Of a stretch of DNA of 64,000 nucleotides, positions 37,003 to 41,583 are shown piece after piece (the first letter of the stretch is position 1; each line of letters opens with the position of its first letter). The notes below the pieces were generated by a model. The model searched no databases. It worked only from the letters and a program-made list of their open reading frames with translations, and was not told the DNA's origin. Made by a program: the position numbers and the translations under genes. The DNA comes from Synechococcus sp. CC9311 (GTDB lineage: Bacteria; Cyanobacteriota; Cyanobacteriia; PCC-6307; Cyanobiaceae): positions 1,922,001 through 1,986,000 of the forward strand of contig NC_008319.1 in the NCBI RefSeq assembly GCF_000014585.1, in the 5' to 3' direction.

Positions 37003-38232
37003 TTAGTGCTGATAATCTAATTGCTGCTTTTCAACTAATCTAGCCATAACTTGTTGGCAAGTCCAACGAAGCGGCCTCCAATAAGCAGACTTGGAAAGCT
37101 CATAGATCAAGTCCAGTTGATCGTAAAGCCCAAGCTCAAGACATGCCCAAGCGGCCGCAATCCTCGACTTCGTGTATTGAGGGGTGGTTTCTGAGAGAGC
37201 AGCTCGCACCAAATCACTTTTTTGGTAAAATTTACGCAAGCCAATAATACATGTAAGGTAATAATGAGTCACATAATCAGACCACAACCTTTCTTGCATA
37301 CTATCAATAATATCAAGACAAGTATTTGACTCAATAGTCATGAGGCTTAAAGCGGCTCCATATTGACGTGCTTCATCACGGTGACTAAGGTTCCTTTCAA
37401 TTTCAGAAGGATCCACATCGCACTTCCATTCACCTTTAATGTTAAGATGTTGTGGATTATCAGTTAAAAGCTGTTCTAGAAGCGAATGATTTTTTGCAGT
37501 ATACATAGTGTTATTGGCATCAACAATCTCCAAGAAACTTTTTGCCCTAAGTGACATGGAGACAGGTGCTCGCACCAAATCAGAGAGCCTACTTTCATCA
37601 CCAGCATCACCTAAGTCAATCACGGCCGAGCGTCGTTTCCCAGCCACCAAATCAGTAAGTTGTGGAACCAAAGGATCCAAAAGATCAACCCTTCCGTAGA
37701 TCTTTGCTTGATATGCTCGAGCGGCACCAAATACCAAGGCACTCTCATGAGAACAAAGCTCATCGATAACAGACTGAGATTTTGAATTTCTAATTTTTAA
37801 TCTGATGTGAGCTTGAATCACTGCCCGCATCATCGTCACTTCACCATTCAAGAGTGACAAAAGAAGATCTATATCCTTGGGGAGGGGTTCCCAACCAATA
37901 CGCACCAAGGACGAGATTGCATTAATAACAGCCTCGGTATCAGTACAGTTCAAAACACCAACTAAAGTTGGTATTGCTCGCATATCTTTCCTTCTTCCTA
38001 ATGCTTCAATAGATTTTCGACGCGTTATTCTGTCATACAATTCATCGATTTTGAGCCTATTAACCGCATGAAGGAGTAATTCAAACGATTCCTCAGTAGT
38101 ACTCAAGCCAAGCCTAGTAGCTGCGAAATAACGATCTGCAGGCCTCTGAACATTCAGAGTTTTTTCCAACAAGATCTTAGAAGCATCATTTTCACTCATC
38201 CCCTGAACCAGGACATCAAATCTTTCAGCCAT
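37003..38232 (-). CDS. mpeW: HEAT-repeat phycobilin lyase, MpeW/MpeZ/CpeY family
   Basis: 409 residues of repeated helix pairs of the E/F-type lyase class. Examples are RRKSIEALGRRKDMRAIPTL, TDTEAVINAISSLVRIGWEP and AYWRPLRWTCQQVMARLVE near the end. Such lyases attach phycobilins to phycoerythrin. In the CA4-B island, MpeW attaches phycoerythrobilin to the MpeA alpha subunit in green light; MpeZ of CA4-A isomerises it to phycourobilin. I favour MpeW because the island sits outside the phycobilisome rod region and carries an RHH gene. MpeZ, MpeQ and MpeY remain possible. Low GC compared with neighbours. Confidence 0.68.
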   Translation of the reverse strand: MAERFDVLVQGMSENDASKILLEKTLNVQRPADRYFAATRLGLSTTEESFELLLHAVNRLKIDELYDRITRRKSIEALGRRKDMRAIPTLVGVLNCTDTEAVINAISSLVRIGWEPLPKDIDLLLSLLNGEVTMMRAVIQAHIRLKIRNSKSQSVIDELCSHESALVFGAARAYQAKIYGRVDLLDPLVPQLTDLVAGKRRSAVIDLGDAGDESRLSDLVRAPVSMSLRAKSFLEIVDANNTMYTAKNHSLLEQLLTDNPQHLNIKGEWKCDVDPSEIERNLSHRDEARQYGAALSLMTIESNTCLDIIDSMQERLWSDYVTHYYLTCIIGLRKFYQKSDLVRAALSETTPQYTKSRIAAAWACLELGLYDQLDLIYELSKSAYWRPLRWTCQQVMARLVEKQQLDYQH

Positions 38233-38571: not shown

Positions 38572-38739
38572 TTATCTCGATCGCTTATCAATTAGTTCAA
38601 TCAAATGAGCATCATGCTTGTCGCAGAACTCAGAAACACACTGCCTAAGAATATGGCCAATAGACAAAGACTCTGTATAACAAAGGAGCTTGAGCTTTTT
38701 ATGAAGCTCATCATTCAACTCAAAGGTGATTCGTTTCAT
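38572..38739 (-). CDS. fciC: Ribbon-helix-helix regulator (55 aa), candidate FciC
   Basis: Minus-strand ATG 38739 opens 55 codons. The beginning MKRITFELNDELHKKLKLLC is the RHH pattern: a basic strand, then helix one. ESLSIGHILRQCVSEFCDKH supplies the turn and helix two. RHH dimers bind DNA with the N-terminal strands. I recall that CA4-B islands carry a small gene, fciC, with this kind of domain, and the position fits; this is from memory. The tail (DAHLIELIDKRSR) is helical. An overlapping plus-strand ORF at 38605 is its antisense. Confidence 0.65.
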   Translation of the reverse strand: MKRITFELNDELHKKLKLLCYTESLSIGHILRQCVSEFCDKHDAHLIELIDKRSR

Positions 38740-38939
38740 TCTCAAGCAGGACTAATTCGCCAAAATCTCGACAAGAATAGTGGTGCAGATTCCCTACATC
38801 CTACTCTTTTTGGTAAGAATCGGATAGCCGCAAAAGGATCTTAATTATTGTCTTAGCTTTGGCCCAACACCAACGCTGGGGCACCTAAAGGATTCAATCA
38901 ATCTTCTGCCTTTAACGAGGTCAATATCTATGTACAACC

Positions 38940-39896
38940 TTAGACAAGCTTTGAGCGCCTAAGCGTCTGGCTTGGCAACTCTCCAAAGCTAGTAAAGTAT
39001 CTTCTCGAAAATCTACCTTGATGTTTAAAACCATAGCGAATGGCTATTTCACGAATAGTATTATTGTCACAACTTGAAGTCGTAGACTGAAAAATCATCG
39101 CTCTTCTGGCTTCCTCCAGTCTTACCTGGGTCATCATTTCTATAATTCCCATTCCAAAGTAATCTTGGCATACTCGATAGAGAGAAGCTTGACCAGAGTT
39201 TAAGAGCTTACAAACATCTGATAATGACAATGGTGAGCTCATCTTATCAAGATCATGAGAAAGATTAACGATCTCACCAAGTAATCGCTGATTCTTTACC
39301 TGTTTCTTTTTATAGCCCCTCTTACTTCCTTCTTCAAGGCATATAGTCATTAAATCATAGTATTTAGATGGATCCGAAATCCCCTTAACAAGTTCCCTTC
39401 TGGTGAGTCTTCGCAATTGAGCAAAAGCTTCATGATCTATATCTAATCCACTAGATTGACTTAGATTATCAATGGCGTGACTTGCATTGCAATCTCGAAG
39501 ATTGTTCAGAAGAATTGTCTTATCTAACATACAAGCAGTTGAAGAGCATGATTCTGAATATTTTCCCCATGAGTCACCTGAATTCGAATGAAAAGTCTTC
39601 AGACCTCCTAGACTATTCAAATTCATATCATAACCTTCACAATATCCAAAAGGATAATTTGATTTCCGCATTGGAGTAATCCAATTAAAATCTACTGACC
39701 AACCTGTACCCCATCCCTCGTATAAGAGTGGTTTTGATGCACAAATCTCTGCTATAGCCATGCTAGAGCATTTTTTATGTGACATAGAATAACTACCTTC
39801 ACCGCTTTCAAGTTGAGTAATTCTCGTAACTTGACCATAGGCCTGAAGAGTCTCAGACAATTGCAATGGATCTGTATAAGCAAGTTGTAGTTTCAT
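38940..39896 (-). CDS. AraC-type regulator, FciA/FciB-type (downstream of pair)
   Basis: 318 residues. The C-terminal 100 residues are an AraC double helix-turn-helix: LSLSDVCKLLNSGQASLYRV, MTQVRLEEARRAMI, then IREIAIRYGFKHQGRFSRRY and FTSFGELPSQTLRR. The N-terminal part is unlike sugar-binding AraC domains. In CA4 islands two such tandem regulators, FciA and FciB, act in opposite ways on the light-colour response. Its start overlaps the stop of the other regulator (ATGA). I cannot tell from sequence alone which is FciA. Confidence 0.82.
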   Translation of the reverse strand: MKLQLAYTDPLQLSETLQAYGQVTRITQLESGEGSYSMSHKKCSSMAIAEICASKPLLYEGWGTGWSVDFNWITPMRKSNYPFGYCEGYDMNLNSLGGLKTFHSNSGDSWGKYSESCSSTACMLDKTILLNNLRDCNASHAIDNLSQSSGLDIDHEAFAQLRRLTRRELVKGISDPSKYYDLMTICLEEGSKRGYKKKQVKNQRLLGEIVNLSHDLDKMSSPLSLSDVCKLLNSGQASLYRVCQDYFGMGIIEMMTQVRLEEARRAMIFQSTTSSCDNNTIREIAIRYGFKHQGRFSRRYFTSFGELPSQTLRRSKLV

Positions 39897-40927
39897 GCTC
39901 GACTCCCTCTACGCAAGTCAGAGACGAGAACACTCATCTTGCTTGCCTTATCAATTGTTTCTTCAGGGCTCTCTTGAAACGTCTTAAAATAAAGAAGTTG
40001 AAAAGAATTCCAATTTTTGAAGCCATAATATAAAGCATTATGCTTCTTAGTAAATTGCTTCAATCCAGAAGGAACATGTGGATTTAAATATGACTTCTTC
40101 ACCTGTTCAAGGCGGATACTTTTAATGAGATCAAGAATATTCATATTAAAGGTAGATCTACATACTTGACCCACAGATTCTTTCTCAGAGTTTAAATATT
40201 TTGTGATTTCCCCTATCGTCAAGGGTGGCAAGCCTTCTCTATCTTCATGTAATAACTTGACAAGATCCTCTATTAGCTCCGTTGATTCAGATCTCTCTGT
40301 TATGGCATTCTGCTGTTCGCAAGGATCCTCTAGGGTTGCTATAGCTAAATCATAAAATTCATCCGCAGATGTCATTCCCTTCGAAAAATGCTTATCAAAT
40401 AGCCTTTTAAGCTGAATACTAGCAGCACTTTTGGAGTCAATACCAATGCATTCTTCAATCCTCGCGTATGCATTATAGGCATTCATCTGATTTATTTTTT
40501 CTTTCATTATTTTCCACTTCAGGCTCATGCAACACAGGAGAGTGTTTGCCCCAACAATATCCCAAGTGTTTCCACCAGTTTTATTTAACCGATTAAATCC
40601 TGCTATGCTTAAATCCCTCATCTTATGACCACTGATAATAGTATTACTGCCAGGCTTTTTGCCTTGATTGTTTATCCAACAGAATGCTATCGAATTCTGA
40701 TTTGCCTCTTCTTCGTACAGCAATGTTTGATTTGACTTAAATATTTCAAGGTGTACGTTATTAATTGGTGCGCAGATTGAGCTCGTTTGCAATTCACCTT
40801 TACTTAACTGAGTAATATTGCAAGAAAAATTCGAAGTGGAATAATAATCATTATAATGATTCTTGCAATATGTTTCCATTCCGAGCAAGTTGCTGAAAAC
40901 ATATTCTTTTGCTTTCCTTGCCTTCAT
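39893..40927 (-). CDS. AraC-type regulator, FciA/FciB-type (upstream of pair)
   Basis: 344 residues with the same plan: a variable N-terminal region and an AraC end with LTIGEITKYLNSEKESVGQV, LDLIKSIRLEQVKKSYLNPH, and YYGFKNWNSFQLLYFKTFQE followed by SPEETIDKA. The second helix-turn-helix is less standard than in its partner. Very low GC. A candidate sigma-70 promoter lies 52 bases upstream. It overlaps the second regulator by four bases, so the two are one transcription unit. Confidence 0.82.
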   Translation of the reverse strand: MKARKAKEYVFSNLLGMETYCKNHYNDYYSTSNFSCNITQLSKGELQTSSICAPINNVHLEIFKSNQTLLYEEEANQNSIAFCWINNQGKKPGSNTIISGHKMRDLSIAGFNRLNKTGGNTWDIVGANTLLCCMSLKWKIMKEKINQMNAYNAYARIEECIGIDSKSAASIQLKRLFDKHFSKGMTSADEFYDLAIATLEDPCEQQNAITERSESTELIEDLVKLLHEDREGLPPLTIGEITKYLNSEKESVGQVCRSTFNMNILDLIKSIRLEQVKKSYLNPHVPSGLKQFTKKHNALYYGFKNWNSFQLLYFKTFQESPEETIDKASKMSVLVSDLRRGSRA

Positions 40928-41007: not shown

Positions 41008-41259
41008 AAATCGTGATGTTCTATGACATTTTAAGATGGCAGAGCTTTTGCCTTGCCAGGCAGACTCGTAGCCTGAGCGAACAACCGAAACGTGATAAAT
41101 ATTTACAGTAAATCGAAGAAAGCTGTCTTGCAAAAATCATAAAACTGCAAAAACACATTTACCATTCCTTCATTGTACTCAATATTATCCGCAGTAAGTA
41201 TGCTTTTGCCTCAATTTTGAGTTGATGCAGTGTATAAATCCGAAAGAGATCATTGTGCT

Positions 41260-41583
41260 ATGTCTAAGTCTCAATTACATGCATTTATTGATCGAGCACG
41301 TAGTGACGAGCAATTTCGTGCTCGGCTCGCATCCTTAAATCCACAACAGATCATAGAATTTGCCGCAGAAAGTGGCTTTCAATTCTCAGACGAAATCAAA
41401 GGGAGATTCATTAATCGCTGGAAAGGCGTTTATTTTTGCCCTCAGGCCATTGAAGTTGGAAATCTATGTCCAGGATTAGTACCACCTGGCTATAAAAATC
41501 TGATTCACTATTCTCAATCTACATGTAGTTCTTCAACTCTTAAGGAAGAAGAATATGATTTCAGGGCAGGCGGCGTCTATTAG
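41260..41583 (+). CDS. Nif11-domain-like protein in the CA4-type island
   Basis: 107 residues from MSKSQLHAFIDRARSDEQFR. The first 50 residues match the Nif11 pattern: L-x-x-F-x-x-x-x-x-x-D-x-x-F/L-R-x-x-L, then PQQIIEFAAESGFQFSDEI. Nif11 leaders precede modified peptides, but the tail here (NRWKGVYFCPQAIEVGN, then several Cys and Ser) has no Gly-Gly cleavage site that I can see. A conserved unknown gene accompanies CA4 islands, and this may be it. ATG 41260 preferred to GTG 41230. Confidence 0.7.
   Translation: MSKSQLHAFIDRARSDEQFRARLASLNPQQIIEFAAESGFQFSDEIKGRFINRWKGVYFCPQAIEVGNLCPGLVPPGYKNLIHYSQSTCSSSTLKEEEYDFRAGGVY

Follow-up and report, generated by a model that had tools for sequence, protein, structure and literature searches.

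How two genomic islands with the same regulators come to respond to opposite light colours is a question of type IV chromatic acclimation (CA4) in marine cyanobacteria, and a small gene of one island type has been suggested as a cause. Each CA4 island encodes one activator and one repressor (PMC9705338). Expression of mpeZ is higher in blue light, 333-fold in strain CC9311, and expression of mpeW is higher in green light, by up to 1,150-fold (PMC3877281). The window, meaning the whole stretch of 64,000 nucleotides analysed here from Synechococcus sp. CC9311, contains an island of the CA4-A type, as it carries mpeZ and not mpeW. What is the short open reading frame (ORF) within this island, what controls it, and what does its product do?

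A small gene flanked by the lyase and AraC-type genes

The island has the order fciA-fciB-fciC-mpeZ on the minus strand, with unk10 divergent. Two AraC-type regulators are encoded by fciA (39893..40927) and fciB (38940..39896; HTH_18, E=7.6e-16). The small gene fciC occupies 38572..38739. The gene mpeZ (37003..38232), named by synteny with published islands (PMC3877281), lies 339 bp downstream of fciC and encodes a phycoerythrobilin lyase-isomerase with HEAT repeats. At its 5' end this CA4-A island carries unk10 (41230..41583, plus strand), which encodes a Nif11-domain protein (Nif11, E=3.4e-11). A preliminary description of the window had reported a small minus-strand gene with the lyase on one side and the two AraC-type genes on the other, and both the position of the ORF and its translation confirm this.

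The assignment of fciC draws on translation, orthologues, dN/dS, codon positions and fold. The ORF comprises 55 codons from an ATG start, and its translation, MKRITFELNDELHKKLKLLCYTESLSIGHILRQCVSEFCDKHDAHLIELIDKRSR, agrees with the 20 residues given earlier. Across 17 aligned orthologues, conservation begins exactly at the ATG, pooled ps is approximately 0.72 versus a pn of approximately 0.086, and the variable columns (69 in total) are distributed 18/5/46 over codon positions 1/2/3. A longer ORF of 79 amino acids on the plus strand (38605..38844) overlaps the gene and masks it, as had been noticed. Each of the antisense frames over fciC contains stops in nearly every one of the 17 orthologues; the 79-residue ORF is not conserved, is thus rejected as a true gene and lies outside the system. 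The ps/pn values, conservation from the ATG, third-position variation and antisense stops together mark the minus-strand ORF as coding far beyond chance: by its pattern of substitution it is a genuine gene, with strong purifying selection acting on it.

This 55-codon gene is fciC, third of the regulator genes in the CA4-A island. Order, strand, size and ribbon-helix-helix (RHH) prediction match the account of Humily et al. 2013, in which fciC encodes 55-67 amino acids with a predicted RHH in CA4-A islands and CA4-B islands lack it (PMC3877281). Restriction to CA4-A islands is also reported in PMC10904595. The preliminary description had named the gene correctly but attributed it to CA4-B islands. 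That label is wrong, since both papers place fciC in CA4-A, and no fciC match was found in any of the nine genomes with a CA4-B-type fciA (54-58% identity in fciA). The gene had also been called unlisted; it was missing from the ORF list used at the time, but it is published as Cyanorak cluster CK_00009137. Finding it again is confirmation of a gene known since 2013, and the new part of this analysis lies outside the ORF, in the sequence termed element B below.

A lack of conservation in other CA4 genomes would have spoken against the gene, which withstood this check in a survey of 400 genomes of the family, a set that samples its species incompletely. Of these, 24 including the window's own have a gene like fciC that is at least 78% identical, so that orthologues are present in 23 other genomes, and all stand in CA4-A-type surroundings. 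The full island, with the three fci genes and mpeZ in the same order and unk10 divergent, is found in 17 of the 24, window included; five lack fciAB (G007, G013, G016, G017 and G028) and two carry fciABC without mpeZ (G005 and G172). In the window, fciC has the expected position upstream of mpeZ on the same strand and downstream of fciAB. The fciC tail of G005 is frameshifted, giving 67 amino acids, and its fciA contains a TGA, which resembles the published WH8016. Only remnants persist in G021. Viral carriage was considered and set aside, as the viral contigs yielded no relative. The gene mpeZ, at 61% identity or more, is present in 24 genomes, 22 of them with fciC. FciC is therefore not strictly required for keeping mpeZ, which occurs without it in G279 (mpeZ alone) and G015 (unk10-mpeZ only).

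The lone mpeZ of G279 (L072, 5576-6805), with neither unk10 nor fci genes, lies near glyQ and tRNA-Ser(cga). A strain-specific stretch of the window's own genome holds an fciC paralogue of 49% identity (G000:C1:674258-674416; L042:5250-5426, minus strand) that adjoins tRNA-Ser(cga), a ComEC-like gene and glyQ. The likeness of the two neighbourhoods possibly marks an old CA4-A insertion site.

An element common to both island types

The spacer between fciB and fciC cannot be aligned between clades, save for one block: TATCCNNTTCTTATCA, followed within about 10 bases by a TAAAAT-like hexamer. The first part is the consensus of element B, which consists of two TATC half-sites 11 bp apart. Element B of the window, TATCCGATTCTTACCA (38811..38826, minus strand), is situated 71 bp before the start codon of fciC and is a proposed FciA/FciB operator. 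Downstream of it the hexamer TAGGAT (38798..38803, minus strand), TAAAAT in many relatives, resembles a -10 sequence and may have a promoter role. Element B is present at no more than one mismatch in 17/17 full, mpeZ-bearing CA4-A islands and in none of 40 rounds of shuffles; these were first-order Markov shuffles, an approximate control, and the consensus derives from those same islands. With the two fciABC islands that lack mpeZ, which carry the element too, the count becomes 19 of 19 fciAB-bearing CA4-A islands. The 3' end of the element lies 63-77 bp before the fciC ATG. In most islands a further sequence, element A (TTNAGCTTTGTAA in other clades), precedes B by 18 or 29 bp, spacings that differ by 11 bp, one helical turn. 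Clade I, the window included, matches it weakly, and there the corresponding position (38832..38844, minus strand) reads TTAAGATCCTTTT. No earlier report of element B or its erosion was found in a search that stopped short of the key 2016 (FciA/FciB) and 2021 papers.

A pattern search of 31 genomes returned few copies of element B at one mismatch or less outside the islands, and none of the five copies inspected lay beside a shared gene. One exact off-island copy in CC9311 (G000:C1:2183298-2183313; L083:1999) separates two divergent regulator-like genes, some 1.4 kb from a small gene with a Nif11-like translation; it may be due to chance. The fciC paralogue has a one-mismatch copy, TATCCAGATCTTATCA (674665-674680), on its own strand approximately 240 bp upstream; the chance of such a copy within 500 bp of the paralogue is roughly 3e-4.

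The CA4-B islands played no part in defining element B and thus provide an independent test. All nine carry it, with 24 sites in total when up to two mismatches are allowed, against a shuffle mean of 0.07. Two copies 21 bp apart are located beside the start of unk10, between unk10 and mpeW. A variant about 110 bp before mpeW is accompanied by GGTCACTTCTTATCAAA at about 65 bp, and a reversed copy precedes fciA by about 100 bp. The copies vary, not all being present in every island. CA4-A and CA4-B islands differ, then, in both the number and the arrangement of element B sites.

The five islands that lack fciAB share one common unk10/fciC junction, and their loss of the two genes was probably a single deletion event. 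The changes that followed consequently count as one natural experiment, not five. In a tree of mpeZ these genomes are placed beside two with full islands (G025 and G008), in an order without resolution. Element B is altered in all five, at 2-5 of 16 positions, and every change falls in the TATC half-sites, which vary little or not at all across the 19 islands with fciAB. The -10 hexamer is altered as well. Element A is kept, and fciC is intact and under purifying selection (dN 0.00-0.03 versus dS 0.03-0.83). One of the five, G007, has no mpeY match in addition to its lack of fciAB and appears to resemble BIOS-E4-1, a strain without fciAB in which mpeZ expression is the same in both colours (PMC3877281). 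The fciC-mpeZ spacer of the five islands (L034, L035, L037, L038 and L040) is a distinct sequence, alike among them (74-93% to L035) and unalignable with that of relatives keeping fciAB; it has possibly been replaced and may contain a constitutive mpeZ promoter. The idea that mpeZ acquired the mpeY promoter was rejected, as no similarity was found.

Which protein would bind element B? Its presence follows fciAB rather than fciC: intact in 19/19 CA4-A islands with fciAB and in 9/9 CA4-B islands, it is eroded in the five without fciAB. Most simply, element B would be a common operator of FciA and/or FciB, a binding that we infer from co-occurrence and one loss event. RHH proteins often autoregulate, and the location of element B directly upstream of fciC would suit an autoregulatory operator of FciC. 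This reading is highly improbable. FciC is ruled out as the binder by a double dissociation, in which element B exists without fciC in CA4-B islands (n=9) and fciC exists without an intact element B in the five fciAB-less islands; the element accordingly tracks FciA/FciB, not FciC. Element A might be an FciC site: the fciAB-less islands, which retain fciC, have preserved it, but an A-like TTAAGCTTCTTAC also stands before fciA in CA4-B islands, where there is no fciC. Alternatively, element B might serve as a core promoter, or bind a sigma factor or some other regulator of the host, and its loss with fciAB would then reflect only that the promoter was no longer needed. The -10-like TAAAAT that follows it in CA4-A islands, and the joint erosion of the two sequences, would fit such a role, which is nevertheless rather unlikely: the CA4-B copies, tandem at 21 bp, pointing either way and variably spaced from gene starts, fit an activator or repressor site better, and few copies exist off-island across the 31 genomes.

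FciC as a proposed output of the switch

The RHH character that had been claimed for FciC is probable from its predicted fold and falls short as regards single-protein Pfam scores. An AlphaFold2 monomer model contains helices at residues 10-23 and 27-41 (mean pLDDT 85) and no assigned strand; in RHH proteins the strand forms in the dimer. Structural neighbours are the RHH proteins PutA, CopASO, Arc, NikR, omega and CopG (VIA Z 4.7-5.8). RHH domains fill the lists of structural matches, with no single strong match and a best Foldseek E of 0.08, modest as expected for 45 residues. Pfam scores are below the curated cut-offs (RHH_1, 14.8 versus 20.5 bits; ParG, 17.7 versus 21.4), as they are for most single proteins of the family, a result that bears on Pfam families and not on the fold of FciC. 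A profile of 29 FciC relatives finds ParG at E=2.3e-5, and the closest profiles are those of ParG, ParD and CopG. A tail, KHDAHLIELIDxR, is conserved beyond the RHH core and partly present in distant picocyanobacterial relatives. The match to the NCBIfam slr0373 blue-light family was discarded as meaningless, at 13.9 bits where 100 is the cut-off. FciC, a predicted 55-residue RHH protein, most likely acts as a DNA-binding dimer. An antitoxin or plasmid-type remnant of the ParD, CopG or ParG kind, which these nearest profiles might suggest, is extremely improbable: no toxin-sized partner gene adjoins fciC in the islands, and its synteny with CA4 genes is fixed in 24 genomes.

The overall reading, to which we assign a probability of about 0.7, joins the fciC gene of the CA4-A island, an FciA/FciB operator at element B that would drive it, and FciC as an output of the switch. 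(i) FciA and/or FciB would bind element B. (ii) In CA4-A islands the element would drive fciC in blue light, probably with mpeZ in one unit, because no terminator-like site was found in the intervening spacer (261-369 bp across islands). Within this spacer mpeZ could also have a promoter of its own, and co-transcription is put forward as a proposal; in the subset examined, no inverted repeats between the two genes are common across clades. (iii) In CA4-B islands the element would drive mpeW, unk10 and fciA. (iv) FciC, made alongside MpeZ as output of the colour switch, would most likely repress or tune a target tied to mpeZ or the phycoerythrin genes, and would not alone set the colour response. 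The target is the weakest step of this explanation, and its own fciC-mpeZ unit is a doubtful candidate.

Strains without fciAB keep fciC, which suggests that FciC does not suffice for a response to colour and probably has a function connected with mpeZ or unk10. In G032, a metagenome-assembled genome labelled Prochlorococcus, a fciC relative (67-70%) points the same way. It lies beside unk10 and a HEAT-repeat lyase, with neither fciAB nor mpeZ (L064, 4998-7408), near CpeT and phycobilisome-protein genes in a phycoerythrin-type region. The literature suggests that FciC makes CA4-A islands respond to blue and CA4-B islands to green, in keeping with its occurrence only in CA4-A (PMC10904595). We regard this as unlikely. 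That strains which have lost colour switching still retain fciC, under purifying selection, speaks against FciC being only the colour switch, and limits the idea that it alone causes the difference between island types; in BIOS-E4-1, mpeZ is colour-unresponsive (PMC3877281). The differing number and arrangement of element B sites could also account for the opposite responses. Tentatively, and at slightly worse than even odds, TATCCNNTTCTTATCA would be the FciA/FciB operator of both island types, with copy number and arrangement setting the opposite colour responses: a single site ahead of fciC in CA4-A; tandem (unk10/mpeW), promoter-proximal at mpeW and reversed before fciA in CA4-B. FciC would then be an output kept even in blue-locked strains. 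The shared element is a concrete operator candidate for the switch of these globally abundant cyanobacteria, and bears on how the two island types, which share their regulators, come to opposite colour responses.

Relation to known systems

The gene itself shows no difference from the fciC of published CA4-A islands (CK_00009137), with which it shares size, RHH prediction, strand, placement between fciB and mpeZ, and restriction to CA4-A. FciC probably shares the strand-helix-helix fold of the RHH repressors ParG, CopG, Arc and omega, and its profile matches ParG; it differs from them in its conserved C-terminal tail and in that no partition or toxin partner was seen. The operators of AraC-type proteins such as AraC and RhaS/RhaR are, like element B, direct repeats one helical turn apart. 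The tandem copies in CA4-B islands are two turns apart, and the island has two AraC-type genes. Element B differs from these operators in its island-specific sequence, and its operator role is putative.
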